From the NCBI RefSeq assembly GCF_010378095.1, contig NZ_WNJL01000030.1, positions 1-47,500 on the forward strand: a DNA stretch of 47,500 bases. The letters run 5' to 3'. Shown in pieces: positions 1 through 23,355 of the stretch. Numbering within the stretch: position 1 is the first letter of the stretch; every line of letters starts with the position of its first letter. The notes beneath the pieces are model-generated. The model saw only the letters and a program-made list of their open reading frames with translations. It did not search any database and had not been told where the DNA came from. A program made the position numbers and the translations under genes. Source of the stretch: Acidithiobacillus ferrianus. Lineage in GTDB: Bacteria; Pseudomonadota; Gammaproteobacteria; Acidithiobacillales; Acidithiobacillaceae.

Positions 1-146
1 CCCTCAAAACCCTCACCACCAGACCGGTAGGCGCGCAACCCCTCCGCCAGAGATCGGTCCCCCTCCGCCAGCCCGCAAAGAAACGCTTCATCCAACCGAC
101 CAAGACCCTCGTCGGAAATAAGTCCTGAACAAGAGAATTCATGCAT
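1..146 (-). CDS. Unrecognised protein, N-terminal part only (runs off window)
   Basis: An open frame starts with ATG 30 nt after the stop of the fdxA gene and stays open to the left edge (48 codons visible). The product begins MHEFSCSGLI and is acidic and Leu/Gly/Glu-rich, with no recognised motif. Same strand and short spacing suggest it is the next gene of the redox operon. The Shine-Dalgarno is weak (GAGATC about 6 nt upstream), so the start is uncertain. A second overlapping frame is also open, so coding is not certain. Function is unknown. Confidence 0.4.
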   Translation of the reverse strand, partial: MHEFSCSGLISDEGLGRLDEAFLCGLAEGDRSLAEGLRAYRSGGEGFE

Positions 147-176: not shown

Positions 177-509
177 TTATGGCTCAAAAACAATGAGATG
201 ATCTATTTTATGCGTCACACCATCCCATTGGTCCGCATCCGCAGCGGTAATACTCCGCTCGGTGATCACCGGCCACCGGGCGGATAACTGTGCATTCAGC
301 TCAATGAATTCGTGAAATTCATACGGTACATCACTGTCTTTATAAATAGCCCCTGCGGGACATTCCGGCTCACAGAGCGTACAATCGATACACTCCATTG
401 GATCTATGACGAGAAAATTGGGGCCTTCATGAAAGCAATCCACAGGACATACCTCGACACAATCCGTATATTTGCAATTGATACAATTATCCGTAACCAC
501 AAACGTCAT
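177..509 (-). CDS. fdxA: 7Fe ferredoxin, [3Fe-4S][4Fe-4S], FdxA type
   Basis: This is a small soluble electron carrier of 110 aa. Cysteines at 9, 12, 17, 21, 25, 40, 43, 46 and 50 have the spacing of Azotobacter ferredoxin I, whose Cys 8/16/49 bind the 3Fe cluster and Cys 20/39/42/45 the 4Fe cluster, with one free Cys. The C-terminal extension (residues 60-110, ending [10 protein letters not shown]) is typical of FdxA. The ATG at 509 was chosen because AGGAG lies 9 nt upstream and the N-terminus MTFVVTDNC matches the family; an in-frame ATG at 551 would overlap the previous gene. It follows the HEAT-repeat gene by 11 nt and is probably an electron donor or acceptor for the AprA-like flavoprotein upstream (inference). 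Confidence 0.93.
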
Positions 510-1733: not shown

Positions 1734-3464
1734 TTATACCATGTCCTTGGTAACAATTCTGAGCCGTTCATATGCCTGAATTTCACCTGCGTCTGGTTCG
1801 AATATATAAGGTTCAACAGGAATTTTCTTGCACACCATCCGCCCCTCTCCGTCCTTATATAGCTGTACATGACAAAGCCAATCGTCATCTTTCTCTGGAT
1901 AATCCACCCGATAGTGATATAGACCCCATCGACTTTCGGTTCGGTAGAGAGATGAAACCGCTGCCATCTCGGCACAATCAAGAATATCGTGTACTTCCAT
2001 GGCGCGCAGTAGATTATGCGGGCCATCTGCCCAGAGCCCCTCTAAATCATCACGAACCTCTGAGAAACGGCGCAGTCCAAGCTCCATTTTCCTGGTGACT
2101 TTTGGAGGTTGAAGGTAATCGTTTACCAAGCGTCTAATTTTATACTCGGCTTGGTAGGGTGTAATACCGCTTTTCCGTTTTAATGGCCGCAGAATGCGCT
2201 CACTCTCGCGTACCATAAACTCTTTGTCCGTTTCTTCGCCACGCATGTCCTCACAATACTTTACCGCTTCCAACCCTGCAATCTCACCATATACGAAGGC
2301 GCCCAACATATAATTATGCGGCACACAGGCAACATCCCCAGCGGCATAGAGTCCCGGAATGGTCGTTTCCGCACGCTCATTCACCCATATGCCAGAAGCG
2401 CTATGTCCACTGCACAATCCAATTTCAGAAATGTGCATTTCAATCATATCGTCACGGTAGTTAGTACCTCTGCCTTTATGGAAGCGACCCCGACTGGGAC
2501 GCTCATTGGTATGCAGAATATTTTCTATTGTGGAAATAGTCTCTTCAGCCAAATGGTTTACTTTAAGAAAAACGGGTCCGTTGCCACCTTCAAGCTCCCT
2601 GAAGAACTCCAGCATCATCTGACCACTCCAGTAATCACACTCAATAAACCGCTCCCCATGCGCATTGGCCGTGTAACCACCCAGTGGTCCGGTTACATAG
2701 GCACAGGCAGGACCATTGTAATCCTTGATCAGTGGGTTTATTTGAAAACACTCTATGCCGGAGAGCTCCGCACCGGCATGATACGCCATGGCGTATCCAT
2801 CGCCGGCGTTCGTAGGATTCTCGTATGTGCCGAACAAGTAACCGGAAGATGGGAGACCAAGCCGCCCGGCCGCGCCGGTACAGATTATTACCGATTTGGC
2901 TTTAATGAATACAATCTCCGCCGTTCTTGTATCCACCGCCATGACACCTGAAACGCGATGGTTTTTCCCGACGGCCACGCGCGTTACTTTATACCTATTC
3001 GTGACATCCACCCTGTTTTTTTTGAGCAGCCTATATAATATCTTCTTTACATTATGGCCTTCGGGCATGGGCAGCACGTAGTTTCCGAGATGATGCACCT
3101 TTTTTACCGCGAACTCGCCCGTCTCGTCTTTCTCGAACTTTACCCCCCATTTGTCCAACCTTTGAATCATCTGGAAACTATTACTGGCGTAGGCCAATAT
3201 GGCTTGCTGATTTACAATTCCATCATTGGCAATAGTTATTTCCCGTACATACTGCTCAGGTGTGGCATGCCCTGGAATCACGGCGTTGTTCAAGCCATCC
3301 ATGCCCATGGAGATTGCCCCGCTCCGCTTTACATTTGCCTTCTCGATGAGCATTACGTTTAGCCGTGGATTAGTTTCCTTGGCTCTAATCGCAGCCATGG
3401 GTCCGGCAGTGCCTCCGCCCACCACGAGAATGTCAACTTCTCTTTCAGAATATTCCATACCCAT
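1734..3464 (-). CDS. AprA/FrdA-family FAD-dependent oxidoreductase
   Basis: The 576-aa flavoprotein belongs to the fumarate reductase / succinate dehydrogenase / APS reductase alpha family. The N-terminal FAD Rossmann motif is at 13-21 (VVGGGTAGP), the second FAD motif GLYAAGD at 371-377, and a CSGHSASG segment at 351-358. RSGAISMG (47-54) resembles the RSGAVAQG segment of AprA. There is no signal peptide and no heme motif, so this is a cytoplasmic enzyme with separate iron-sulfur partners. It starts 10 nt after the GntR gene stop with GAGGGCGGA upstream. It is probably the catalytic subunit of the operon, exchanging electrons with the AprB-like ferredoxin and FdxA. Sequence alone does not give the substrate; known family members reduce or oxidise APS, fumarate, aspartate and others. 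Its composition looks more AT-rich than the genes to its right. Confidence 0.85.
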   Translation of the reverse strand: MGMEYSEREVDILVVGGGTAGPMAAIRAKETNPRLNVMLIEKANVKRSGAISMGMDGLNNAVIPGHATPEQYVREITIANDGIVNQQAILAYASNSFQMIQRLDKWGVKFEKDETGEFAVKKVHHLGNYVLPMPEGHNVKKILYRLLKKNRVDVTNRYKVTRVAVGKNHRVSGVMAVDTRTAEIVFIKAKSVIICTGAAGRLGLPSSGYLFGTYENPTNAGDGYAMAYHAGAELSGIECFQINPLIKDYNGPACAYVTGPLGGYTANAHGERFIECDYWSGQMMLEFFRELEGGNGPVFLKVNHLAEETISTIENILHTNERPSRGRFHKGRGTNYRDDMIEMHISEIGLCSGHSASGIWVNERAETTIPGLYAAGDVACVPHNYMLGAFVYGEIAGLEAVKYCEDMRGEETDKEFMVRESERILRPLKRKSGITPYQAEYKIRRLVNDYLQPPKVTRKMELGLRRFSEVRDDLEGLWADGPHNLLRAMEVHDILDCAEMAAVSSLYRTESRWGLYHYRVDYPEKDDDWLCHVQLYKDGEGRMVCKKIPVEPYIFEPDAGEIQAYERLRIVTKDMV

Positions 3465-3474
3465 TCGTCCGCCC

Positions 3475-4221
3475 TCAATTACGTCTCAGGTTAATCATAT
3501 ATTTCAATGCGTCACCACGATAATAAATATGCTCATAATCAATGGGCGCATCTTCCGCTGTATAAGTGAGTCGCTCCATCCTGAGGATCGGAGACCCCAC
3601 CTCTATTTTTAGAAGCCGGGAGAGCGCCTCGTCCGATAGTATTGACTCCAGCTGAATCTCTGCACGACCAAGCTGAAGGCCATATTTATTTTCCAGGATG
3701 ACAAAGATATCCTGCGTCGCGAGATCCTCCAAAACCAGTCGTCTGCCAATACTGCATGGCACATAGGTAATGTCCACGGATATCGGTTCTCTATTCAAAT
3801 AACGCAACCTTCTAATTTCCATAATATCCGTGCCTTCGCATTTTAATTTTGATCTCACCGTGCTGTTCTCGATGGTCTCCCTTGCGCCAAGAAACGTCGA
3901 AAACGTTTCATGTCCCTTTGCGATCATGGCTTCGCCGAAGCCTTGCAGAGAGATTAATTCTTGTGTGGCTTTTGGTCTGGAAACAAAAGAACCCTTACCC
4001 GGAACTTTAACGATCAAACCATCTGACTGCAGATCTCTCAGTGCCTGTCTCACCGTGGTTCTACTCACGTTAAAAGACTTGACCATGTCACTTTCCGAGG
4101 GCATCTGAGAATGTGGGGGATACGTTCCGTCCAGGATGCTGGACCGTATTTGCTCTTTCAGTTGCAAATACAATGGATGCATCGAGGTGATTGTCGTGCA
4201 GGTGTGTTTTATGGATGCCAT
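3475..4221 (-). CDS. GntR-family (HutC/UTRA) transcriptional regulator
   Basis: The 248-aa regulator has a winged helix-turn-helix at about 16-83 (PLYLQLKEQI, SRTTVRQALRDL, GKGSFVSRP) and a UTRA ligand-binding domain at about 100-243 (RRLRYLN, ISVDITYVP, MERLTYTAE, YEHIYYRG). Proteins of this subfamily usually repress their own operon until a small metabolite binds UTRA. AAGGAG 7 nt upstream fixes the ATG at 4221. It is the first gene of the redox operon. A perfect 7+7 bp palindrome 19-36 nt upstream of its start codon overlaps the predicted transcription start and is its likely operator. The ligand is unknown, but is presumably the substrate of the flavoprotein system or something derived from it. 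Confidence 0.92.
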   Translation of the reverse strand: MASIKHTCTTITSMHPLYLQLKEQIRSSILDGTYPPHSQMPSESDMVKSFNVSRTTVRQALRDLQSDGLIVKVPGKGSFVSRPKATQELISLQGFGEAMIAKGHETFSTFLGARETIENSTVRSKLKCEGTDIMEIRRLRYLNREPISVDITYVPCSIGRRLVLEDLATQDIFVILENKYGLQLGRAEIQLESILSDEALSRLLKIEVGSPILRMERLTYTAEDAPIDYEHIYYRGDALKYMINLRRN

Positions 4222-4239
4222 CGTGCCGCTCCTTGGTGA

Positions 4240-4257
4240 TACCTGTAGGAACAGGTA
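4240..4257. promoter_or_regulatory. Perfect palindrome, candidate GntR operator
   Basis: TACCTGT and ACAGGTA form a perfect 7-bp inverted repeat around a 4-bp spacer. The site spans the predicted sigma-54 transcription start (about 4246) and directly precedes the GntR gene, where a bound repressor would block initiation. That the GntR protein binds it is inferred from position only. Confidence 0.6.
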
Positions 4258-4272
4258 GCAATATCAATGCCA
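4257..4272 (-). promoter_or_regulatory. Sigma-54 (RpoN) promoter of the GntR-flavoprotein operon
   Basis: Read on the minus strand, TGGCATTGATATTGCT has the -24 GG and -12 GC exactly 10 nt apart and matches the sigma-54 consensus TGGCAC-N5-TTGC at all but one of its fixed positions. Initiation would fall near 4246, giving a leader of about 25 nt that contains the AAGGAG of the GntR gene. Two NtrC-like sites lie about 105 and 118 bp upstream of the start, a normal enhancer distance. Confidence 0.75.
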
Positions 4273-4306
4273 AGCGGGCCGCATCGTAAATATCATAGAA
4301 ATCATT

Positions 4307-4316
4307 GTGATATCAC
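4307..4316. promoter_or_regulatory. 10-bp palindrome GTGATATCAC between enhancer and promoter
   Basis: This perfect self-complementary 10-mer is centred about 65 bp upstream of the predicted sigma-54 start site. A third regulator (for example IHF, a second GntR contact or a CRP-like protein) could bind here, but nothing in the sequence says which. It may be chance. Confidence 0.25.
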
Positions 4317-4342
4317 TACTGCAGAAATGCTCACGGTTAAAA

Positions 4343-4359
4343 TGCACTATGCGGGTGCA
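4343..4359. promoter_or_regulatory. NtrC-type enhancer site 1 (promoter-proximal)
   Basis: TGCACT-N5-GGTGCA has the length and dyad of the enterobacterial NtrC consensus (TGCACC-N5-GGTGCA), with one mismatch in the half-sites. Its centre lies about 105 bp upstream of the predicted sigma-54 start. It shares the TGCA at 4356-4359 with the second site. Confidence 0.65.
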
Positions 4360-4372
4360 CCATTGGAGTGCA
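4356..4372. promoter_or_regulatory. NtrC-type enhancer site 2 (overlapping)
   Basis: TGCACC-N5-AGTGCA is a second 17-bp dyad in phase with the first, with TGCA cores at 4343, 4356 and 4369, i.e. every 13 bp. Paired NtrC sites allow cooperative binding of two dimers, as at glnA promoters. The rest of this gene-free stretch (4373-4549) shows no open frame with a ribosome-binding site and no other signal I can support. Confidence 0.65.
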
Positions 4373-4549
4373 TCGCACTAAAATCGGGCGCGACGCGGTC
4401 CGGTGGAATCACGGCTTCCGTGGAGACTTCGAATCATGTTGCTGGCGCGGGATTCCGCGCAGGGCATACCATAAAGTCCCGGCGCTTGAAAACGTACGCT
4501 TGGGCATGTGCGCGGATGATCCGGACGACACCGGACACGCGCGGGGGAT

Positions 4550-5053
4550 TTATTTCCGGTAGTGCTTCCGCCGAAACAAGTCCGTCTTGCGCGAGACCAG
4601 TCGGTCCAAAAAAAGGAAACCGTCCAGGTGGTCTATTTCATGCTGAATGGCTCGCGCCTCAAAGCCCTCGCATTCGTAGCTTCGCTCCCGCCCTTGTGCA
4701 TCTTGTGCCTGCACCTGTATGCGTTCAGCGCGAATGACATTACCGGTGAAGTCCGGGACCGACATGCAACCTTCCCGGCCCACTGCCATGCCCTCCCAGG
4801 CCACCAACTCGGGATTGATCAGTACCATCAGTCCATGACAATCATCCCCCAGTTTGGGGCGCACATCGACAAGAACGATACGCTGGAGGCGGTCCACCTG
4901 CGGCGCGGCGATGCCCACACCACCGGGGCCGGCGGACATTGTTTCGGTCAGATCATCGACGAAATGGCGCAATTCCTCATCAAAGAGGCTGACGGGCTCA
5001 GCCACGCGATGCAACCGGGAGTCCGGATACGTCAGAATGGACAGCATGACCAT
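4550..5053 (-). CDS. def: Peptide deformylase
   Basis: The 167-aa metalloenzyme removes the N-formyl group from nascent proteins. All three family motifs are present: GGVGIAAPQ (44-52), EGCMS with metal ligand Cys96, and QHEIDHLDG with ligands His138 and His142 and catalytic Glu139. The start at 5053 overlaps the stop of the preceding ACT-domain gene (TGATG); an in-frame ATG two codons later is possible. It is the last gene of the rluD-to-def operon. Its usual neighbours fmt and dprA are not here, so this may be a second copy elsewhere partnered with fmt (inference). Confidence 0.95.
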   Translation of the reverse strand: MVMLSILTYPDSRLHRVAEPVSLFDEELRHFVDDLTETMSAGPGGVGIAAPQVDRLQRIVLVDVRPKLGDDCHGLMVLINPELVAWEGMAVGREGCMSVPDFTGNVIRAERIQVQAQDAQGRERSYECEGFEARAIQHEIDHLDGFLFLDRLVSRKTDLFRRKHYRK

Positions 5054-5575: not shown

Positions 5576-6196
5576 CTAGACTCCTATGGCGAGGGCTTTC
5601 GCCTGTACGAGATAACGAAAACAGTATTCCAGCAATTCGAGATGGTGCCTGGCCGCCAGAAAATCCGAACCCCAGGCGGTCACCCCGTGATGGTGGATCA
5701 GCACCCCGGGAATGCGGGGCTGTGCCGACGTAAAAGCTGCATCCATCTCTTCGGCAATCCGGGCGACGTTCACATGATTGGCGAAGACCGGCAGATCCAC
5801 CCGTGGCTCGGCATCAGGCACCCCCAGACCCTTGAGCATTTCCAGTGCCGGCAGGCGCAGCCGGCCCTGTTGCGCGAAGTGCCCGCAGAGATTGGCCTCG
5901 ACCGAGTGGACATGGAAAATGACCCGGGCGTCCGCCACATGCCGGTAGACCACCTCGTGGAGGGCGACTTCGGCAGAGGGTCTACGTCCCGGCGGGGCTT
6001 GCACCACCTGACCGCAGCGATCCACCAGGACAAAATCCCCGGCATCCAACCGATCCTTGGGGCGGCCGCTGGCGGTAATCCAGAAAGCGTCCGTGTCGCG
6101 GCGCGCCGACAGGTTGCCCGCGGTGCCCAACATCCAGCCGCGCGCATAAAAATCGCGAGCCGCCGCGGCGAGGTGCGTGCGCGGGTCATCGTGCAT
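5576..6196 (-). CDS. mtnB: Methylthioribulose-1-phosphate dehydratase
   Basis: The 206-aa protein has the class II aldolase fold and dehydrates 5-methylthioribulose-1-phosphate to 2,3-diketo-5-methylthiopentyl-1-phosphate in methionine salvage. Visible motifs are GTAGNLSAR (25-33), ITASGRPK (40-47), zinc ligands His95 and His97 in FHVHS, and the HHHG segment at 168-171. The ATG at 6196, overlapping mtnX by 11 nt, gives the usual length; an upstream in-frame ATG would add 11 low-complexity residues. Assignment to this substrate rests on the adjoining mtnX, mtnW and mtnD. Confidence 0.92.
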   Translation of the reverse strand: MHDDPRTHLAAAARDFYARGWMLGTAGNLSARRDTDAFWITASGRPKDRLDAGDFVLVDRCGQVVQAPPGRRPSAEVALHEVVYRHVADARVIFHVHSVEANLCGHFAQQGRLRLPALEMLKGLGVPDAEPRVDLPVFANHVNVARIAEEMDAAFTSAQPRIPGVLIHHHGVTAWGSDFLAARHHLELLEYCFRYLVQAKALAIGV

Positions 6197-6839
6197 GGGC
6201 GGGCTCCCGCCACCAGCCGCGTTGCGCAAGGGCTGCGCTCACCTCCGTGAAATCATCGAAGTGCACGAAGTCCCTCCCCTCCGCCCGCAAATATTCCGCG
6301 AGACGATCCCGCGCGCAGACCAGGGGACATTGCCGGGCTACTCGCAAATCGGTGATGGAGTCCCCGATGCAGACGGCATCCTCGGGATGATAGTGCGCGA
6401 CCACCGCGGCCTTGGCCACCAGTTCATGGTCATCCTGCCAGGGTGAGAACACCCGCAGGCATGCACCGGTGGTGTCCGCCTCCAGACCATGGATGGCGTA
6501 AATTTCCTGACGGTAAGGCGCGAGGACGATCTCCGCCATGCGCGTGAAGCCGCCAGTCACGACAATGAAAGGGGTATCGGCTTTTTTGGCCTGAGCCAAT
6601 AATCCGGCCAACCCTGGACGCAACACCGTGTCCCGTACAAACGCCTCCAGATCCGGCCAGCATCGCGAGGGGATGGTGCCGAGCACCTGCGGCAGACCAT
6701 CGCGCAAGGTCAGACGTTGCGCGTAGATCTCCGGCAGCACCCGGGCGGCGGCCTCCGGCGCAAAATGGCGCATCAGGGCCACAAAGACTTCAGCCTCGGT
6801 GATGGTGCCGTCGAAATCGCAAAAAATGGCTCTTTGCAT
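6186..6839 (-). CDS. mtnX: 2-hydroxy-3-keto-5-methylthiopentenyl-1-phosphate phosphatase
   Basis: The 217-aa HAD-superfamily phosphatase carries DFDGT with Asp8 (nucleophile) and Asp10, VTGGF as motif II, and GDSITD as motif IV. In the Bacillus-type route it dephosphorylates the enol product of MtnW to give the acireductone used by MtnD. The start at 6839 overlaps the mtnW stop (TGATG). The related serine-phosphatase branch of the family is an alternative, but the neighbours decide for MtnX. Confidence 0.9.
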   Translation of the reverse strand: MQRAIFCDFDGTITEAEVFVALMRHFAPEAAARVLPEIYAQRLTLRDGLPQVLGTIPSRCWPDLEAFVRDTVLRPGLAGLLAQAKKADTPFIVVTGGFTRMAEIVLAPYRQEIYAIHGLEADTTGACLRVFSPWQDDHELVAKAAVVAHYHPEDAVCIGDSITDLRVARQCPLVCARDRLAEYLRAEGRDFVHFDDFTEVSAALAQRGWWREPAHAR

Positions 6840-8011
6840 CAGCCCGGCCCCCATTTTTCCACCGCCGCCCTCAGGGGTCCGGCGGGCAAATCTTCCAGAG
6901 CGCGCGGCGCCGCATGCTGCCAGCGCGCGATGGCTTCGTGGAAAGCCAGCACCCCGCTCGCGGGGCTCTGGGGATGGTCCATGATCCCGGTTCCCGCATT
7001 GAGGATGACCTCGGTTCCATAGTCATCGAGGATGCGCCCCACCATGCCGGGATGCACGCCCGCCGAAGGCACCGGCGCCACGCTCCGCGCCCGCAGCGCG
7101 GCGACGATGGCCCATTCGTCCGCCGCGGCGAAGGGCAGGCTGCCGTAATGGGCCGGATAGAGCACCGCATCCGCGCCGCCACAGGCCATCAACGTGCCCA
7201 ACAACACCCCATAGGAAAAGCCGTAATCCGGCGCGCCACACCAGGCACCCGCCAAAGCGGGGTGCGCGAAGATCGGCACATCGATGTCGGGATCGGCGGC
7301 CAGCGCCTCCAGTAGCGGAAAACCGTAAGCCAGCACGTTGAGAAGCAGCGCATTGGCCCCGGCGGCCACCAGTTGTCGAGCCAGATCTTGCACTTGCTGC
7401 GCATCCCCAGAGAGATTCACCGCATAAAGCAGATCACGGCCTGTCTGGTCACGCCGTGCCGCGATCACCGGCGCGCAGGCTTCCCAACGCGCCAGGGCCG
7501 CAGCCATCGGCAGGTTCGGGAGGATTTCGTCATCTTTGATGATATCCAGCCCGGCAGCGGCAACCTCCGCCAGAATCGCGGCATGGTCCGCCGCCGTCAG
7601 CCCCAGCGCCGGCTTGAAAATGGCCATAACCAAGGGCCGTTCCTGCACCCCCAGTCGTGCGCGGATGCCATCCAGCCCGAAGCGCGGCGCCTGTCCGAAG
7701 CGCTCCGGCAGACGAATCGCCGTCACCTTGGCGGGACCCGCCAGAGAGTATTTGCCGAAAATCATCGTCAGCAGGCTGCCGAGACGACCATCCACATTGG
7801 CGGCGGGGAAGCGCACCGTGGCCTGATGCCGCCCAGCCGCCAGTTCGGCCATGGCGATCACCTCCCCCAGATGGCCGCGCAATTGCGCCTCCCGGTGCTG
7901 AAAGCGTGCATCCCAGCTCCCTGCAGTCTGGCCGATGGCAATGGCCTGTGCCTGCCGCCGGGCGTCTACCCCGGCGGGAAACTGGTAATCGACCTCAATG
8001 AAAGCCGTCAT
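6839..8011 (-). CDS. mtnW: RuBisCO-like protein, diketo-methylthiopentyl-1-phosphate enolase
   Basis: The 390-aa form IV RuBisCO homologue is not a CO2-fixing enzyme in this context; it tautomerises 2,3-diketo-5-methylthiopentyl-1-phosphate. Catalytic elements shared with RuBisCO are visible: KPALGLT with Lys133, and KDDE with Lys159 (the carbamylated lysine of RuBisCO), Asp161 and Glu162 as metal ligands. It overlaps mtnD (ATGA) and mtnX (TGATG), so it is made with the other salvage enzymes. Another RuBisCO-like subgroup acts as a methylthioribulose isomerase, but the adjacent mtnX and mtnB favour the MtnW role. Confidence 0.92.
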   Translation of the reverse strand: MTAFIEVDYQFPAGVDARRQAQAIAIGQTAGSWDARFQHREAQLRGHLGEVIAMAELAAGRHQATVRFPAANVDGRLGSLLTMIFGKYSLAGPAKVTAIRLPERFGQAPRFGLDGIRARLGVQERPLVMAIFKPALGLTAADHAAILAEVAAAGLDIIKDDEILPNLPMAAALARWEACAPVIAARRDQTGRDLLYAVNLSGDAQQVQDLARQLVAAGANALLLNVLAYGFPLLEALAADPDIDVPIFAHPALAGAWCGAPDYGFSYGVLLGTLMACGGADAVLYPAHYGSLPFAAADEWAIVAALRARSVAPVPSAGVHPGMVGRILDDYGTEVILNAGTGIMDHPQSPASGVLAFHEAIARWQHAAPRALEDLPAGPLRAAVEKWGPG

Positions 8012-8556
8012 GAGCCGGGGAAATGTTGAAGGGCGCGATTCGTATAATGCGGCGTCCAGCCACCGCGCGCACTGAAGTAGCGCACTGCTTTGATCCGCTG
8101 CGCGTCATTCAGGCGGAACCAGTGCTCCACGTCCGCCGGGATGTGGATATAATCCCCCGCCTGCACGGTCAACTCGACCTGTGCACCGTCTTCCAGAACG
8201 AAGCCAAAAACTCCCTCTCCGTCCACAATATAGCGCACCTCTTCATCCTCATGGGTATGTATCCGGCGGAAACGGGCATCGAGTTCCGGCAACTGCGGAT
8301 GTCCGGGATACAGCACGACCAGATCCCGCTCCTGATAGCCCTTTTCTCGCTGCAAACGCTGAAAGACATCATCCAGGGCCGCCAGCAGTGCCGCTTGTGC
8401 GTCCGCGTCCAATTGCGCCTGGGCCAACAGCGCCGCCGCACCCGCCGCCATCACCGGGATCTCTCGCACGCCAACCCCCAGAGGGGCGAGGATGGCGGCA
8501 ACCCGCTCCATATCGGTGATCCGCTGCATTGATTCCGCATATTGCAAAACTGCCAT
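8008..8556 (-). CDS. mtnD: Acireductone dioxygenase
   Basis: The 182-aa cupin metalloenzyme oxidises acireductone to 2-keto-4-methylthiobutyrate and formate, the last carbon step before transamination to methionine. Metal ligands are His100, His102 and Glu106 in HTHEDEE, and His145. The gene starts 1 nt after the pgeF stop and overlaps mtnW by 4 nt. With Fe(II) the product is the methionine precursor; with Ni(II) the enzyme makes an off-pathway product. Sequence does not show which metal is used here. Confidence 0.95.
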   Translation of the reverse strand: MAVLQYAESMQRITDMERVAAILAPLGVGVREIPVMAAGAAALLAQAQLDADAQAALLAALDDVFQRLQREKGYQERDLVVLYPGHPQLPELDARFRRIHTHEDEEVRYIVDGEGVFGFVLEDGAQVELTVQAGDYIHIPADVEHWFRLNDAQRIKAVRYFSARGGWTPHYTNRALQHFPGS

Positions 8557-11077: not shown

Positions 11078-13061
<1,984 letters not shown>

Positions 13062-13062
<1 letters not shown>

Positions 13063-13934
13063 CAGTATCCCATCACCTCGGCGGCACGGATACCCAGTTC
13101 GGCGGGAGAGTGCACACAATGCACACCCGCCGCTTCCAGCACCGCGTATTTGGCCGCCGCCGTTCCCGCGCCGCCGTCGATAATGGCCCCCGCGTGGCCC
13201 ATGCGCTTACCCTTGGGCGCCGTGGAACCCGCAATGAAGGCCACTACCGGCTTGCGAACCTGCTCTTGAATAAAAGCCGCGGCGTCTTCCTCCATGCGTC
13301 CGCCGATCTCGCCCACCATGACAATCACCTCGGTCTGCGGGTCCGCCTCAAAAAGTTGCAAGGCCTCGTTGAAGTTCATACCAACCAGGGGATCGCCGCC
13401 GATACCCACGCAGGTACTCTGCCCCAGACCCAGACGCGTGGTCTGCTCCACGGCTTCATAGGTGAGCGTACCGGAACGGGAGACGATGCCCACCCGTCCG
13501 GGTTGATGGATGGCACCGGGCATGATCCCGATCTTGGACTGCCCTGGCGTGATGATTCCCGGGCAATTGGGACCGATGAGTCGCGCCGGCGCTTCCGCCA
13601 GATAATGCTTCACCATCAACATGTCATGCACCGGAATGCCCTCGGTGATGCAAACGATGAGCTGGATGCCCGCGGCGGCCGCCTCGATGATGGCATCGGC
13701 GGCAAAAGGTGAGGGTACGTAGATCACGCTGGCTTCGGCGCCGGTGTCCCGTACAGCGTCGGCCACTGTGTCAAACACGGGCAAATCGAGATGACGGCCG
13801 CCGCCCTTGCCGGGTGTCACTCCACCCACCATGCGGGTCCCGTAGGCGATCGCCTGTTGCGAGTGGAAAGTCCCTTGCTTGCCGGTAAAGCCCTGGCAAA
13901 TCACCCGAGTGTCACGGGACAGCAATATACTCAT
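13062..13934 (-). CDS. sucD: Succinyl-CoA ligase, alpha subunit
   Basis: The 290-aa CoA-binding subunit contains the phosphohistidine region [10 protein letters not shown] and the CoA-binding motif [10 protein letters not shown] near residue 16. With SucC it interconverts succinyl-CoA and succinate with substrate-level phosphorylation. The ATG at 13934 overlaps the preceding small gene (ATGA) and lacks its own Shine-Dalgarno, so translation depends on coupling. The gene for a small membrane protein separates it from sucC. Confidence 0.96.
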
Positions 13935-14275
13935 AGTTGCACCAGAATCACGAGAAGAAGAACACCGATTACCGCCTCTCCCAGGAGCAGGAGAAGCACA
14001 TAGGGATTGCGCCGGGGTACTGGACTGATTCTGGCGACCGCTGTACGCAAGGCCGTCAAATCCTGGCGCAATGCCTCCAAATCGTCGGCCTGCGCCACGG
14101 ACTTGAGCCGTTCGTCGAGAATCTGGTCGAGCAACACTGCCATCTCGGCCATCACCTCGGCACTTTTCTGATCCGCACCACGTTTCACGTAAACATCGGC
14201 GAGACGCGAAATCAGCGGACCGGAATTACGCAGCACCGGCCACAGGCGTTGCAACCAGAATAGGTTGATGGACAC
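13931..14275 (-). CDS. Small protein with C-terminal membrane anchor, unrecognised
   Basis: The 114-aa product is of unknown family. Residues 1-90 are helical and charged, with a stretch likely to form a coiled coil (about 40-82, [22 protein letters not shown]). Residues 91-113 ([21 protein letters not shown]) make one hydrophobic transmembrane helix at the very end, so the protein is probably tail-anchored in the inner membrane facing the cytoplasm. It starts with GTG 1 nt after sucC and overlaps sucD by 4 nt. Its fixed place between the two ligase subunits suggests it tethers or regulates that enzyme (inference). Confidence 0.75.
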
Positions 14276-14276
14276 G

Positions 14277-15440
14277 TCAGCCTTGCGCCGCCGCCACAGC
14301 CTTCATGGCCGCATCGGCAAGACCATCGGCGGTAATCAGAGAGAGGCCGCTGCCGCGCAGCAAGGCCATGCCCTCTTCCTTTTTGGTACCTTCCAGACGC
14401 ACCACCACCGGCAGATGAAGACCCACCTCCGCCGCTGCCTGGATGATGCCCTCCGCCAGCAGGTCACAGCGGGTGATGCCACCGAAGATGTTGACCAGTA
14501 TCGCCTTCACCCGGCTATCCGAGAGAATGAGTTTGAAGGCCTGGGTGACCTTATCCGCGGCCGCGCCCCCGCCCACATCGAGGAAATTGGCGGGCTCACC
14601 GCCGTGCAGCTGGATGAGGTCCATGGTCGCCATGGCCAGTCCGGCCCCGTTGACCATACAGCCGATGTTGCCCTCCAGAGAGATATAATTCAGTCCAAAC
14701 TGCCGCGCGGTGATTTCCCGCCCATCCTGCTGAGTGGAATCGAAGAGCTCGTCCGACTCGGGATGACGGTAGAGCGCGTTATCGTCCATCACCACCTTGG
14801 CATCCAGGGCCAGCAGTTTGCCTTCCGTCGTGATGGCGAGGGGGTTGATCTCCACCATCAAGGCATCCAGTCGCTGCGCCAGACGGTACATGCCCTGCAT
14901 GATGCGCGTGAACTGCTGCACCTGACCGGCATCCAGCCCGAACCGGAAACCGAGCTGGCGCGCCTGAAAAGGCAGAAAACCGGTGCTGGGCTCGACCACC
15001 ACCCGATACAGGGACTCCGGCCGAGAGGCCGCCAGCGCCTCGATATCCATACCGCCTTCCTGAGCCGCGAGGAAGGTGATCCGCGCCTGCCCACGATCCA
15101 CCATCAGGGCCAGATAGAGCTCGCGGGCAATGCGGCTGGGCTCCTCGATGAGCAGAGCCGCCACATGCTGACCCTGGGGACCGGTCTGTGCCGTGACCAG
15201 CGGCTTGCCCAACAATTCCTGCGCGGCCTTTTCCACTTGGGCAATGCTATCCACCACCCGCACGCCACCAGACTTACCGCGCCCACCAGCGTGGATCTGT
15301 GCTTTGACGACCCAGGCGCCCCCCCCCAGTTCACGGGCCTGATTCACCGCCTCCCGCACCGAGAAGGCAGGAATGGCATGGGGCACCGGCACCCCCTCTT
15401 CGGCCAGCAAACGTTTGGCCTGATATTCATGCAGATTCAT
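14277..15440 (-). CDS. sucC: Succinyl-CoA ligase, beta subunit
   Basis: The 387-aa ATP-grasp subunit starts [12 protein letters not shown], the family hallmark. Nucleotide-binding segments [15 protein letters not shown] and MVEINPL and the C-terminal [13 protein letters not shown] are visible. GAGGAAG upstream of the ATG at 15440 overlaps the icd stop. It pairs with SucD. No 2-oxoglutarate dehydrogenase gene is nearby, so in this organism the ligase may serve the reductive or biosynthetic branch of the cycle (inference). Confidence 0.96.
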
Positions 15441-15449
15441 GAAACTTCC

Positions 15450-16742
15450 TCACAGGCGACGCACCAGCGCCGCGCCAAACTCCGTCGTGCTCAAGGCCGG
15501 CACGTCACCGCGCAACGCCGCCAGATCGCCGGTCACTTCGCCGCTGGCAATGGCCGCGTTCATGGCCATGCCGATACGCTGCGCCGCCTCGCCCCAGCCC
15601 AGATGTTCCAGCATCATCACCGCCGACAAGATCAGTGAACTAGGATTGGCTTTACCCCGACCGGCGATATCCGGTGCCGTGCCGTGGGTGGCCTCAAAAA
15701 TCGCATGGGTGTCCGACAGGTTCGCGCCCGGTGCCATACCGATGCCCCCCACTTCCGCCGCCAGCGCGTCGGAAATGTAATCGCCGTTGAGATTGAGCGT
15801 GGCCACCACCGAATAATCCTCCGGCCGCAGCAAAATCTGCTGCAGGAAGTTGTCGGCGATCACGTCCTTGATCATCAGTTTGCCATCGGCGATGGCCTGC
15901 TGTTCCACCTTCTGGGCCGCCACCTTACCCTCTGCCCGGACAATGGCCGCCTTCTGCCGCCAGGTGAAGACCCGTCCGGCGAACTCCCGTTCGGCCAAGG
16001 CGTAGCCCCAGTCGCGGAAGCCGCCCTCGGTGAACTTCATGATATTGCCCTTATGCACCAGACTCACCGAAGGCTTGCCATGCTCCAGCGCATACTGGAT
16101 GGCGCGGCGCACCAGACGCTCCGAGCCCTCCACCGACACCGGCTTGATGCCGATGGCCGAACTGGCCGGGAAGCGGATTTTGCTGACCCCCATCTCGTCC
16201 TGCAAAAAGCGGATGATTTTTTCCGCTTCCGGACTGCCCGCCGGCCACTCGATACCCGCGTAAATGTCCTCGGCGTTTTCCCGGAAGATGACCATATCGA
16301 CATTTTCCGGATGGCACATGGGGCTGGGCGTACCCGCAAAATAACGTACCGGCCGCAAGCAGACGTAGAGGTCCAGATCCTGGCGCAGTGCCACATTGAG
16401 GCTGCGGATTCCGCCACCCACCGGGGTTTCCAACGGCCCCTTGATGGCGACCTTATACGCACGGATAGCGGCCATGGTTTCTTCGGGAAGATACTGCCCC
16501 TCACCGTAGAGCGCCACCGCCTTCCGCCCGGCAAAAAGCTCCATCCAGGCAATCCGCCGCTGGCCGCCATAAGCGGCCTGCACTGCGGCATCCACCACCG
16601 CACGCATGGCCGGCGTGACATCACCACCGATCCCATCCCCCTCGATGAAGGGAATAATGGGCTGATCGGGCACCCGCAGCACCCCATCCACCTGGGTGAT
16701 GGGCTTCCCCTGAGCCGGAACCTGAATATGCGCCATGGTCAC
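15450..16742 (-). CDS. icd: Isocitrate dehydrogenase, NAD-type signature
   Basis: The 430-aa homodimeric-type isocitrate dehydrogenase converts isocitrate to 2-oxoglutarate and CO2. The substrate loop [12 protein letters not shown] contains Ser114, equivalent to E. coli Ser113. At the cofactor-deciding position E. coli has Lys344-Tyr345 (HGTAPKYAG) for NADP; here it is Asp358-Ile359 (HGTAPDIAG), the combination of NAD-dependent enzymes. The start is GTG 16742 (GGAG 8 nt upstream, 4-nt overlap with acn) or the ATG two codons on. An NAD-dependent enzyme is reported for Acidithiobacillus thiooxidans. Confidence 0.93.
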
Positions 16743-18676
16743 GATACTTTCTCCAGTTGTTCGCTGGCCCAGGACAAGGCGCCCCCCTTCAGAATCAACT
16801 CCAGATCACGGGCGCTCGCCAACTGCGGCATGACCGGAATATCCAACCCTTGGGTTTCATCGCGCAGCGTCAGCGCCTGGCCCAGCGCCAGCCCCCGGAT
16901 ATCCAGACTGAGCTGATCCCCCGCCTGCACCCTGGCATAATCCGCCGCGTCCACGAAAGTCAGGGGCAAGATGCCAAAGTTGATGAGATTAGCCAGGTGA
17001 ATGCGCGCAAAAGACTTGGCCAGCACCGCACGCACGCCGAGATAGCGGGGCGCCAGTGCCGCATGTTCACGGCTGGAACCTTGCCCGTAATTGTGGCCCG
17101 CCACGATAAAACCACCCCCGGCCGCCTTGGCCCGGGTCGGGAAGGTCTCATCCACAATATGAAAGACAAACTCCGAAATGGCGGGCAGATTGGAGCGTAG
17201 CGGCAGCACCTTGGCTCCGGCCGGCATGATGTGGTCGGTGGTGATGTCATCTTCCAGACGAATCAGCACCTCGCCCTGCAGGTTTGCCGGAGCGGCCTGG
17301 CCGGCGGGGAGTTTGGCGATGTTGGGGCCACGGATGATGTCCACCGGGCTGCCTTCGGCGGCGGGGGCGAGCACCATCCGGTCATCGACCAGAAAGTGCT
17401 CCGGCACCGGCACGTGAATAGGCGCCAGCCCCAGATCGCGGGGATCGGTGATCACCCCGGTCAGGGCACAGGCGGCACAGGTTTCCGGGCTCGCCAGATA
17501 CACCGCCGCATTTTTAGTACCGGAACGTCCATAGAAATTGCGGTTGAAGGAACGCACCGAGACGCCTTCCGTAGGCGGTGCGAAGCCCATGCCGATACAA
17601 GGCCCGCAGGCCGATTCCAGAATGCGCGAACCGGCCCCGATGAAGTCCAGCAGGCCGCCATCCCTGGTCACCATTTCCATGACCTGACGGGAACCGGGCG
17701 ACACCCCCAGGCTGACGCCGTCAGCGACGACCTTGCCCTTGAGCATGCTCGCCACGGTCATCAAATCCGTATAGGACGAGTTGGTGCACGATCCGATGGC
17801 CACCTGCGCCACGGGCGTTCCCGCCACCTCGCGCACTTTCCGGACGTTGTCGGGGCTGTGCGGACAGGCGATGAGGGGCTCCAACTGGTCGAGATCGATT
17901 TCCAGCACCTCGTCATAGCCGGCATCCGCATCCGCCACCCACTCCGACCAGGAGGCGTCGCGCCCCTGCGCCGCCAGATAACGGCGGGTCACGGCATCAC
18001 TGGGGAAGACACTGGTGGTGGCGCCCAATTCGGCACCCATGTTGGTGATGGTCGCCCGCTCCGGCACACTGAGGTGGGCGACGCCCGGCCCGAAATACTC
18101 AAAGACTTTGCCGACGCCGCCTTTCACCGTCTTGTGGCGCAGCACTTCGAGGATAATGTCCTTGGCACTGACGAAAGGCTGCAAGCGGCCGGTCAGCTTG
18201 ACCCCAACCACCTGCGGCATATTGAGGTTGAAAGGCAACCCGCCCATGGCCAGGGCAATGTCGAGACCACCCGCACCAATGGCCAGCATGCCCGCTCCGC
18301 CGGAAGTCGGCGTGTGGGAATCGGAACCCAGCAGGGTACCGCCCGGCCGGGAAAAGCGCTCCAGATGCACCTGATGGCAGATGCCATTGCCGGGGCGGGA
18401 AAAATGCACGCCATATTTCGCGGCAAAGCTCTGCAGAAAACGGTGATCGTCGGCGTTTTCGAAGCCGGACTGGAGCATGTTGTGGTCCACATAGGACACC
18501 GACAGCTCCGTGCGCACACGCGGCAGGCCGAGGGCCTCGAATTGCAGATAGGCCATGGTCCCCGTGGCGTCCTGGGTCAGGGTCTGGTCGATATGGATAG
18601 CAATAGAGCGCCCCGCTTCCAGCGTGCCACTGACCAAATGGGCGGCAATAATCTTCTGGGTGACATTCATAGCCAT
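16739..18676 (-). CDS. acn: Aconitate hydratase (short bacterial type)
   Basis: The 645-aa enzyme isomerises citrate to isocitrate through a [4Fe-4S] cluster. Cluster ligands lie in IGSCTNSS and [21 protein letters not shown] and the swivelling C-terminal domain with [15 protein letters not shown] are visible. It is clearly shorter than E. coli AcnA (~890 aa) and belongs to the ~650-aa group also seen in Aquifex and Geobacter relatives. The ATG at 18676 has AGGAG 7 nt upstream. It is the first gene of the acn-icd-sucC-x-sucD-nadE-glnB operon. Confidence 0.94.
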
Positions 18677-18726
18677 GAACTGCTCTCCTGATCTGCGGAA
18701 ATCGGTCGGGAACAACGGGCCTCTCC

Positions 18727-18755
18727 ATCATCGCAAAAGCACCGCCCCGCGCCAA
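18727..18755 (-). promoter_or_regulatory. Candidate sigma-70 promoter of the acn operon
   Basis: On the minus strand TTGGCG and GATGAT are separated by 17 nt (four of six matches each), ending about 50 nt before the acn start codon. The match is modest and rests on position and spacing only. Confidence 0.3.
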
Positions 18756-18784
18756 GTATCAGCAGACCCTAAACAGCAAAAACC

Positions 18785-18811
18785 CCGCCGCGCCGGATAC
18801 CGGTTCGGCGG
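18785..18811. repeat. Inverted repeat in the acn/sulP divergent region
   Basis: CCGCCG pairs with CGGCGG (6 bp), with an inner CCGG/CCGG stem around ATA. It lies between the divergent acn and sulP genes and could be a regulator site or an RNA hairpin. No T-run follows, so it is not an intrinsic terminator. Confidence 0.35.
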
Positions 18812-18892
18812 ATGACAATTCCGGCAACGCCGTTATATCATGCGTATTCACAAAAACCATTTGAAAAACACGGGAACAGACGACAGCGGCCC

Positions 18893-18918
18893 CCACGGGA
18901 ACCCCACCCTGCCCGTGG
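18893..18918. repeat. Inverted repeat in the sulP leader
   Basis: CCACGGG and CCCGTGG form a perfect 7-bp stem with a 12-nt loop, 54 nt upstream of the sulP start codon. It is likely transcribed as part of the sulP leader. No known riboswitch fold is recognised. Confidence 0.35.
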
Positions 18919-18971
18919 CACATCCGTAAGGCGTCCGCCCTGCGCCCGCTGCGGGTATTCAAGGAGTCTTC

Positions 18972-20765
18972 ATGTTTCGTACCCCCGCGGTCGATCCCCT
19001 GTGGCTTTATCGACTGCTTCCTTTTCTGCGCTGGATGCCACGAGTCGGCAAGGAATCTCTGCGCGTCGACCTGGTCGCGGGCGTTACCGGCGCCATCATC
19101 GTGCTCCCCCAGGGGGTCGCCTTTGCCACCATCGCCGGGTTGCCCCCGGAATACGGCCTGTATACCGCCATGGTACCCGCCATCATTGCCGCCCTTTTCG
19201 GTTCGTCCTGGCACCTGGTCTCCGGACCCACCACCGCCATCTCTATCGTCATGTTCGGCGCGCTGAGCCTCATGGCTGAACCGGGAACACCGTATTACAT
19301 CGAACTCGCGCTCACCCTCACTTTGTTGACGGGGCTCTTCCAGCTTGCCATGGGCATCGCGCGGCTGGGCACTCTGGTCAACTTTATCTCCCATACCGTG
19401 GTGATTGGTTTCACCGCGGGGGCGGCCCTCCTCATCGCCAGCAGCCAGATCAAGAATTTCTTCGGCCTCAATCTTCCGCATGGTGCCTCTTTTGGCCAGA
19501 CCATGCTCGGCTTTTTCCACCGAATCGGGGAAATCAATTTTTACGTCCTGGGCGTGGCCCTGGTCACGCTCCTCACCGGAATGGTCGTCAAACGATTCGC
19601 CCCTCGCTTTCCATATATGATCGCCGCCATGCTGGCCGGCAGCCTGATGGCCTTGGCACTCAACCACTATCTGGGCGACGCACGCACCGGGATTCGCCTG
19701 CTCGGCGCCCTGCCTGGTCGGTTACCGCCCCTGTCTCTACCGGACTTCGATCCCAAGGTCCTGGGTCAGCTTGCCCCCAGCGCCCTCGCCGTGGCGATGC
19801 TCGGTCTCACCGAGGCTGTCTCCATCGCCCGCGCCATCGCGGTACGCGCCGAACAGCGCATCGATGGCAATCAAGAATTTATCGGCCAAGGGCTCTCCAA
19901 TATCTTCGGCAGCTTTTTTTCCGCTTATGCATCCAGTGGATCTTTCAACCGTTCCGGCCTGAATTTCGAGGTGGGCGCCCGTACTCCGCTGGCCGCCGTT
20001 TTCGCCTCTATCGCGTTGGGCATCATTCTCCTGCTGGTGGCTCCCCTCATGGGCTACCTGCCCATCGCCTCGATGGCGGCCATCCTCTTTTTGGTGGCCT
20101 ATGGGCTGGTCGACCTACACCACATCAGGGCCATCTTCAAGGCCAGCAAACGCGAGACCGCCATATTGCTGGTGACCTTTTTCTCGACCCTGTTTGTCGA
20201 GTTGGAGTTCGCGATCTACGTCGGTATCATACTCTCGCTGATCTTTTATCTGATGCGAACCTCACGCCCCAATGTCGTTGCCGTAATCCCCGACCCCGGA
20301 ACCTCCCCCCATCCGTTGTCGGCCAGCGCGCAACTCCCGTACTGCCCACAGGTACAGGTAGTGCGTATCGACGGTTCTCTGTTTTTCGGCGCCGTTCACC
20401 ATGTGGAACAACGCCTGGCCGAACTCGAGCAACAATACCCAGAGCAAAAAATACTGCTCCTCAACGCACGGAGCATCAACTTCATCGACATTGCCGGTGG
20501 AGAGTCCCTGGCGCAGGAGGCCAAGCGTCGGCGCAAACAGGGTGGCGACCTCTATATCTATGGCATCAAACCCGCCATGTACGAGGTCATGGAGCGTGGC
20601 GGGTTTATCCGCGCCCTGGGGTCAGACCATATTTTTGCCCATCGAAAGGAGGCGATCCGCCACCTTTTCCCGCTTCTGGATGCCGAAACCTGCGCCCGCT
20701 GCACGCAGCGGGTATTCGATGAGTGCAAGGCGTTACCCATGCCACTCTCCACAACCGCCTCATGA
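18972..20765 (+). CDS. SulP-family anion transporter with STAS domain
   Basis: The 597-aa inner-membrane protein has 10-14 hydrophobic segments in residues 25-435, including the SulP segment IVLPQGVAFATIAGLPPEYGLY, and a cytoplasmic STAS domain at about 455-560 (VVRIDGSLFFGAVHHVE, LLLNARSINFIDIAG). Substrates known in the family are sulfate, bicarbonate and other anions. Sequence does not decide between sulfate uptake and BicA-like bicarbonate uptake; both would suit a sulfur-oxidising autotroph. AAGGAG 6 nt upstream fixes the ATG. It overlaps the next gene by ATGA. Confidence 0.9.
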   Translation: MFRTPAVDPLWLYRLLPFLRWMPRVGKESLRVDLVAGVTGAIIVLPQGVAFATIAGLPPEYGLYTAMVPAIIAALFGSSWHLVSGPTTAISIVMFGALSLMAEPGTPYYIELALTLTLLTGLFQLAMGIARLGTLVNFISHTVVIGFTAGAALLIASSQIKNFFGLNLPHGASFGQTMLGFFHRIGEINFYVLGVALVTLLTGMVVKRFAPRFPYMIAAMLAGSLMALALNHYLGDARTGIRLLGALPGRLPPLSLPDFDPKVLGQLAPSALAVAMLGLTEAVSIARAIAVRAEQRIDGNQEFIGQGLSNIFGSFFSAYASSGSFNRSGLNFEVGARTPLAAVFASIALGIILLLVAPLMGYLPIASMAAILFLVAYGLVDLHHIRAIFKASKRETAILLVTFFSTLFVELEFAIYVGIILSLIFYLMRTSRPNVVAVIPDPGTSPHPLSASAQLPYCPQVQVVRIDGSLFFGAVHHVEQRLAELEQQYPEQKILLLNARSINFIDIAGGESLAQEAKRRRKQGGDLYIYGIKPAMYEVMERGGFIRALGSDHIFAHRKEAIRHLFPLLDAETCARCTQRVFDECKALPMPLSTTAS

Positions 20766-23241: not shown

Positions 23242-23355
23242 CCGGGTGAGGATAGCAAGCACCATGCCAACACCATGTTTATAATGGCGTCCTTATTATG
23301 CGGGGTTACATCTGCGGGACGCCCATTGCGGATCGAACCGCCAGGAAGGAGCAGC

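Follow-up and report, generated by a model that had tools for sequence, protein, structure and literature searches.

A putative NtrC/sigma-54 promoter with a predicted GntR operator in front of a flavoprotein redox operon of Acidithiobacillus ferrianus

Gene content of the locus

The window analysed here is a stretch of 47,500 nucleotides from Acidithiobacillus ferrianus, which corresponds to bases 1–47,500 of contig C24 in a genome of 3.17 Mb. The intergenic stretch 4222–4549 separates a peptide deformylase gene from the gene of a GntR family regulator. Both genes are on the minus strand, so that a promoter located in this stretch has no evident target other than the GntR gene and those that follow it. 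These genes and the regulatory elements in front of them are listed in Table 1. Gene calling was crude: the deformylase gene of the window was missed, and some genes of the related loci were split or fused.

Table 1. Genes and regulatory elements at the start of the window
Feature	Position	Strand	Remarks
Large (~1200 aa) FAD/NAD(P) oxidoreductase, 5' end	1..146	-	cut by the contig start; judged by eye
Ferredoxin FdxA	177..509	-	inner ATG chosen as start; NF045490, 158.2 bits vs cut-off 135
HEAT-repeat protein, 309 aa	521..1450	-	PF13646; similar to the C-terminal part of PRK13800, a fused flavoprotein family
Small 2x[4Fe-4S] ferredoxin, 77 aa	1479..1712	-	Pfam Fer4 families; adjoins the flavoprotein in many loci
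FAD flavoprotein, fumarate reductase/AprA superfamily	1734..3464	-	NCBIfam PRK08275, 1029.7 bits vs cut-off 587
GntR family regulator with UTRA ligand domain (HutC/NagR-type)	3475..4221	-	PF00392, PF07702
Predicted GntR operator	4240..4257		perfect 7+4+7 palindrome TACCTGT-AGGA-ACAGGTA over the predicted start
Sigma-54 promoter	4257..4272	-	TGGCATTGATATTGCT, GG-N10-GC, exact
NtrC-type dyad, nearer the promoter	4343..4359		TGCACTATGCGGGTGCA, TGCAC-N7-GTGCA, no mismatch
Second NtrC-type dyad	4356..4372		TGCACCATTGGAGTGCA, no mismatch; TGCA common to both dyads

The regulator, which combines GntR DNA-binding and UTRA domains, is encoded beside its predicted targets. Its UTRA part matches TIGR02018, and its nearest relatives of solved structure are NagR (YvoA) and DasR. 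The 77-residue ferredoxin is probably the partner of the flavoprotein. The HEAT-repeat protein aligns with positions 612–896 of NF010374 with a score of 81.3 bits, below the cut-off. A search with the PRK13800 profile was discarded as unspecific: it matched all 20 genomes and 13 of the 14 controls, none of them over the cut-off.

The gene order in Acidithiobacillus, assembled from several contigs, is GntR, flavoprotein, ferredoxin, HEAT protein, FdxA and large oxidoreductase, then a zinc-ribbon protein, a binding protein, a permease, an ATPase and an OprD-type porin. The window contains the first five genes and the start of the sixth. The importer genes are on another contig of the same genome (C46), which opens with the end of such an oxidoreductase gene according to a visual inspection of the translation. 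No piece of the large oxidoreductase was found in the genome itself (G000) at an E value of 1e-20 or better. Several assemblies, among them those of the relatives G006, G012 and G013, break inside this gene.

The same genes (GntR, flavoprotein, ferredoxin, HEAT protein, FdxA, FAD oxidoreductase, porin and importer) are found on the plasmid pTcM1 (L127) of A. caldus. There, in the region 14551–20324, the importer genes have the opposite orientation, and the insertion sequence ISAtc1 separates the permease gene from the binding-protein gene. The gene set is widespread: flavoprotein relatives are encoded in at least 594 stretches of species-representative genomes. Among 57 related genomes, eight contain the flavoprotein gene (E 1e-60): 6 of 17 in the genus, the genome studied here included, 1 of 12 from the family's other genera, 1 of 2 at the level of the order and 0 of 26 at that of the class.

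Architecture of the promoter region

Read along the minus strand, two exact TGCAC-N7-GTGCA dyads are followed by TGGCATTGATATTGCT, by TACCTGT-TCCT-ACAGGTA and by the GntR start codon at 4221. These elements, their conservation and the gene order can be read directly from the DNA. The palindrome sits directly after the -12 element. Counting 12–13 bases past this element places the predicted transcription start at about 4246, within the palindrome, and the dyad centres lie 105 and 118 bp upstream of this start. The elements described in the earlier note are therefore all present: two overlapping NtrC-type dyads, a sigma-54 promoter with exact spacing about 105 bp away, and a perfect 7+7 palindrome across the predicted start, just before the GntR gene. 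A scan of 4200–4560 for a sigma-70 alternative gave a single weak pair of hexamers, located on the opposite strand.

The exact sigma-54 pattern occurs at 31 sites in the genome, and the reversed control at none. When one mismatch is allowed, matches are not rare in the window (4 found for 3.6 expected), so that the position of the site and its conservation carry the weight. The exact dyad pattern is found at eight places in the 3.17-Mb genome, compared to none for the reversed pattern, and two of the eight are the overlapping pair of the window. Dyads with up to two mismatches are not enriched in the window (11 found vs 7.3 expected; 10 of 100 shuffles reach 11), which is why only the exact pair counts. 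Weak dyads at 1624–1653 were rejected as sites, as they lie inside the ferredoxin gene (1479–1712). The two exact dyads overlap in a 13-bp register and share TGCA, so that two NtrC dimers would hardly be able to occupy both at once.

No second copy of the palindrome was found in the genome at zero or one mismatch, and two mismatches give three other places, compared to ten for the reversed control. In the window, the 16-bp core of the palindrome is the sole match with at most one mismatch (0.07 expected; 7 of 100 shuffles have one).

A promoter of similar appearance precedes the importer genes. On contig C46, an exact sigma-54 site (791–806) lies before the gene of the importer binding protein and is followed by an operator-like palindrome. 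The same two elements are found before the binding-protein gene in three relatives (L119, L120 and L121). By eye, the palindrome on the importer side deviates from the operator pattern by one mismatch in L120 and L121, by two in the genome studied here and by three in L119. In L122, no sigma-54 or operator-like site was found before the binding-protein gene.

Conservation in related loci

The comparison covers 92 loci (the window, L017–L103 and L127–L130), 82 of which have an upstream GntR gene. Eighty of the 92 are the best 80 of the at least 594 flavoprotein relatives, a choice in which distant members are not represented. Matches were present in 51 plasmid records, of which 11 were examined, two of these without annotation. 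Close kin were kept (L018/L019, L020/L021 and many Ralstonia and Paraburkholderia loci), and the loci are therefore not independent events. L024 is the same contig as L017; when it is left out, the counts become 81 GntR loci, 35 with a sigma-54 site and 55 with an operator.

A sigma-54 site with at most one mismatch is present in 36 of the 82 GntR loci, compared to 89 of 4920 background windows (1.8%), which originate from these loci and could contain the promoter itself; for exact sites the numbers are 25 of 82 and 36 of 4920. With at most one mismatch, the operator pattern ACYTGT-N4-ACARGT is found in 56 of the 82 loci vs 82 of 4600 background windows (1.8%) of the same origin, and exactly in 27 of 82 vs 48 of 4920. 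Of the 36 loci with a sigma-54 site, 16 have dyads with at most one mismatch at a distance of 50–170 bp upstream of it (19 of 2160 windows), and 28 have dyads with at most two mismatches there (160 of 2160 windows).

We also aligned seven upstream regions, each of them cut around its own sigma-54 site and hence chosen for having one. The four closest rows agree at 100% of the positions of the sigma-54 site, 94% of those of the operator, 57% of those of the dyads and 35% of the other non-coding positions; for all seven rows the values are 69, 50, 30 and 15%. The sigma-54 site is identical in the four closest rows, and the outer TGCAC of the second dyad is kept in seven of seven rows, window included. 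In near relatives, the sigma-54 site and the operator are strongly conserved, and the dyads moderately. L017 and L019 have dyad pairs in the same 13-bp register as the window, with one or two mismatches. The two best dyads (at most two mismatches) are 31 bp apart in L022, L028 and L029 and 30 bp apart in L023, a spacing nearer to that of a classical NtrC pair, whereas the dyads of the window overlap.

The earlier note had proposed a scan of orthologous upstream regions for conservation of the three elements. This conservation holds for the sigma-54 site and the operator in the loci counted above and for the dyads in a moderate, degenerate form, but it does not extend to the 46 of 82 GntR loci in which no sigma-54 site with at most one mismatch was found. 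The latter include the named Burkholderia, Ralstonia, Pseudomonas and Acinetobacter loci, most of which keep the GntR gene and the operator. Control by nitrogen is thus not common to all members of the family. A sigma-54 site is present in 10 of the 11 loci with a called large oxidoreductase, compared to 25 of the 70 others; this count considers called genes only, and the window, cut contigs and plasmid loci are counted among the others.

An operator within two mismatches is found in 30 of the 36 sigma-54 loci, the six others being L020, L021, L033, L050, L067 and L094. In 25 of the 30, it begins 16, 18 or 23–24 bp past the start of the sigma-54 site. The distance is 16 bp in seven loci (window, L017, L018, L019, L022, L024 and L025), 18 bp in one and 23–24 bp in 17; in five the operator lies elsewhere. 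It is very unlikely that the palindrome is a chance inverted repeat or the site of a regulator other than GntR. The variation of its centre between lineages would be in line with this idea, as would the 26 of 82 loci in which it has more than one mismatch, but the pattern was found in none of the 10 loci that lack GntR, a small sample in which the stretch before the flavoprotein gene was scanned and which includes one locus with only 85 bases. The near-fixed distance from the sigma-54 site and the operator-like copy before the importer also argue for a GntR operator. Moreover, one G, an A-C pair and a second G are invariant in 55 of 55 sites, which were selected by the pattern.

NtrC and RpoN

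The genome encodes NtrC (TIGR01818, 768 bits vs a cut-off of 558.6) and RpoN (TIGR02395, 519.9 bits vs 277.35). One of the six exact dyad places outside the overlapping pair lies before a histidine-kinase gene, which we take to be ntrB on account of its position directly before the sole gene that scores over the ntrC cut-off. Others precede an ammonium transporter (PF00909), an amino-acid permease, an NMT1-type binding protein of an ABC importer with its permease gene, and a porin gene; the sixth has no clear gene. The sole exact sigma-54 site at the usual distance from one of these dyads is that of the porin gene, 98 bp on. The dyad of the NMT1-type binding protein has a site with one mismatch at 122 bp, and that of the histidine-kinase gene a site with two mismatches at 112 bp. 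An exact site lies 446 bp from the place without a clear gene, the best one for the amino-acid permease has three mismatches, and no site was found within 500 bp for the ammonium transporter.

Another activator, such as NtrX or an unassigned enhancer-binding protein, might act on a real sigma-54 promoter here, in which case the operon would not respond to nitrogen starvation in the classical way. Candidates exist, since the NtrC model has 28 matches in the genome, 15 of which cover the central part (the sigma-54 activator part, as read from the match ranges); in addition, four loci (L041, L044, L045 and L052) have sigma-54 sites without a dyad at up to two mismatches in the 350 bases searched. 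We consider this unlikely all the same: only one of the 28 matches passes the ntrC cut-off, exact dyads occur beside the ntrC operon and the ammonium transporter, and dyads are enriched upstream of the sigma-54 sites of the related loci, as described above.

The earlier note read the region as an NtrC/sigma-54 promoter under GntR repression. Taken as a prediction, this reading is well supported, because the elements are conserved in relatives, ntrC and rpoN are present and a similar promoter precedes the importer.

The flavoprotein and the oxidoreductase

The earlier note also called the flavoprotein AprA-like. This is correct at the level of the superfamily, which comprises AprA, PAPS reductase and fumarate reductase, but probably does not extend to the function of AprA. 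That the module is a true APS or PAPS reductase, involved in sulfate reduction or sulfite oxidation and placed under nitrogen control, is hardly credible. It is true that the nearest solved chain is 8a8o_A, the alpha subunit of the PAPS reductase of Methanothermococcus thermolithotrophicus, followed by AprA, and that a small 2x[4Fe-4S] ferredoxin comes behind the flavoprotein. However, the flavoprotein scores 155.5 bits with the aprA model, vs a cut-off of 641.75, and the aprB model reaches 29.3 bits, vs 135.65. We aligned 91 homologues with two AprA proteins from a Thiobacillus genome. The positions of a Trp and an Arg, which we take to be the active-site residues Trp234 and Arg265 of AprA, are occupied by Tyr and Leu in 91 of 91 homologues, and this makes an APS reductase unlikely; the equivalents of Asn74 and His398 are kept in all 91. 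The flavoprotein is also linked to an importer.

The likeness to AprAB and to the PAPS reductase of M. thermolithotrophicus thus lies in the FAD fold family and the small 2x[4Fe-4S] partner, as far as the available part of the published description goes (PMC10322725). The system studied here differs by the replaced Trp and Arg, by its aprA score far below the cut-off and by its linkage to a HEAT protein, an importer and an oxidoreductase.

The large oxidoreductase, examined through the homologue of L027, has GltD-like and FNR-like parts, and is reminiscent of NfnAB at low scores (PRK12778, 100.2 bits vs 1103; PRK06222, 38.5 bits at the C-terminal part). Its best NCBIfam match is PRK06567 (587.7 vs 1072), and a PDB search gives NfnI alpha with 36.5 bits. 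In six loci and one plasmid without a called large oxidoreductase, a gene for a ferredoxin-NADP reductase is located close by. This resemblance, together with the nearby reductase genes, favours a reductive direction of the predicted electron flow.

The importer and its possible substrate

The binding protein of the importer is nearest to the taurine and sulfonate binders TauA and SsuA. As in TauABC and SsuABC, it is of the NitT/TauT kind and is accompanied by a permease and an ATPase. In TauA, Gln30 and Gly61 contact the sulfonate, and Glu106, Thr132 and Asp205 contact the amine of taurine, according to the published description (PMC6906117). The residues Q38, S81 and G82, which align with Gln30 and Ser60-Gly61 of TauA, are found in 45 of 45 binding proteins, and the position of Gly79 is occupied by Gly in 22 and by Ala in 23. 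The positions of Glu106 and Asp205, on the other hand, are Asn and His in all 45, and that of Thr132 is Thr in 23, Ala in 18 and Ser in 4. Since the sulfonate contacts are kept but the amine contacts are changed to Asn and His, the ligand may be an anion other than taurine. The protein further differs from TauA and SsuA by a C-terminal extension of about 130–150 residues, which is unusual for a taurine-type binder, and its L027 homologue (13434–14885) scores below both cut-offs (SsuA_fam, 119 vs 163.5; taurine, 85.4 vs 304.25). The extension of this homologue shows a weak match to NosL (E 0.012, below the cut-off), and none is listed for the protein of the genome studied here.

Homologous genes on plasmids of Fervidacidithiobacillus (Acidithiobacillus) caldus have been interpreted in terms of organosulfonates and sulfur: the available text of that study predicts a role in sulfur assimilation (PMC12375680). 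Its section 22 does not discuss the promoters of these genes, and the word nitrogen does not occur in the available text. The promoters described here point to nitrogen instead.

Sulfur oxidation is characteristic of the genus Acidithiobacillus, and the bacterium studied here is presumably an acid-loving sulfur oxidiser. An operon that takes up organosulfonates as an alternative source of sulfur, with NtrC/sigma-54 control as a secondary feature, would agree with the nearness of the binding protein to TauA and SsuA, with its invariant sulfonate contacts and with the possible organosulfur genes that lie near some loci of heterotrophs. We nevertheless regard it as doubtful. It fits poorly with promoters in which NtrC/sigma-54 sites precede both the redox operon and the importer, and a sulfur oxidiser would hardly be short of sulfur. 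No desulfonating enzyme of the SsuD/TauD type is found among the ten most widespread neighbour families, and the changed amine contacts and the partial conservation of the Thr132 position also argue against this function.

Proposed mechanism

We consider it likely that the region 4240–4372 is a doubly gated sigma-54 promoter of an import and redox operon that releases nitrogen. The operon would comprise the genes from GntR to the large FAD/NAD(P) oxidoreductase, through the flavoprotein, the ferredoxin, the HEAT protein and FdxA. Under nitrogen limitation, phosphorylated NtrC would bind the upstream dyads and activate the RpoN polymerase at 4257–4272. GntR bound to the palindrome would block transcription from the start site as long as it is not released by its ligand, which is probably the substrate or a product. 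The genes of the substrate-binding protein, permease, ATPase and OprD-like porin would be driven by a second promoter of comparable design. This suggests that the operon is on only when nitrogen is short and GntR lets go, and that it serves to scavenge nitrogen and not sulfur.

The imported compound is most likely a small anion, and electrons derived from NAD(P)H would pass through the ferredoxins and the flavoprotein to release usable nitrogen from it. We infer the binding, the activation, the response to nitrogen, the reductive direction and the release of nitrogen. The presence of nitrogen in the substrate, which the earlier note had also predicted, is deduced from regulation only, and is a reasonable inference for this lineage. 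As a more specific proposal, to which we give a small chance, the substrate could be a small molecule with nitrogen and an oxyanion such as a sulfonate, for example an N-sulfonated one like sulfamate, and the flavoprotein, descended from AprA but with a changed active site, could split it by reduction into sulfite and an amine or ammonia. In sulfur oxidisers, the operon would then be kept under NtrC for nitrogen, and many heterotrophs without the sigma-54 site may keep it for sulfur.

HutC, the regulator of the hut genes, is a GntR/UTRA protein. In the hut system of Pseudomonas, NtrC activates a sigma-54 promoter in response to nitrogen from two distant palindromic subsites upstream, and HutC provides substrate-dependent derepression, according to the available part of the published description (PMC8871633). 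The same combination of activation by NtrC and sigma-54 with a GntR/UTRA repressor is predicted here. By this analogy, the control logic is already known and the promoter is not of a new kind. It differs from hut by the location of the operator, which covers the predicted start site directly beside the -12 element, and by the controlled genes, a set of flavoprotein, ferredoxin and importer. The words GntR, fumarate and sulfonate are absent from the available main text on the NtrC regulon of the Acidithiobacillia (PMC12194929), and a limited search of the open literature found no paper on the promoter described here.

At least in the lineages that have the sigma-54 site, the promoter provides a physiological clue, nitrogen supply, for a widespread and uncharacterised gene set. 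It calls into question two labels in use, APS reductase and sulfonate as a sulfur source. It also makes the substrate searchable by simple experiments, namely growth tests with one nitrogen source at a time and screens for ligands of the binding protein and of GntR.

Neighbouring genes

In Aquabacterium olei (L140), a gene for a TauE/SafE sulfite exporter and ammonium-transporter/glnK genes flank the operon (7328–8071 and 15966–17749). The exporter has no match among the open reading frames of the first 12 kb of the window and of L013–L103, and it was therefore not used as evidence.

Methionine-salvage genes are found upstream of the deformylase gene, at 5576–8011 of the window; among them, mtnB scores over its cut-off and an mtnW-like RuBisCO-like protein below its cut-offs. 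Another exact match to the sigma-54 pattern lies at 23254–23269, on the minus strand. A gene for a P-II protein of the GlnB/GlnK type (11078–11452) is located about 7 kb from the promoter, and its product is 68% identical to GlnK of the Aquabacterium plasmid.
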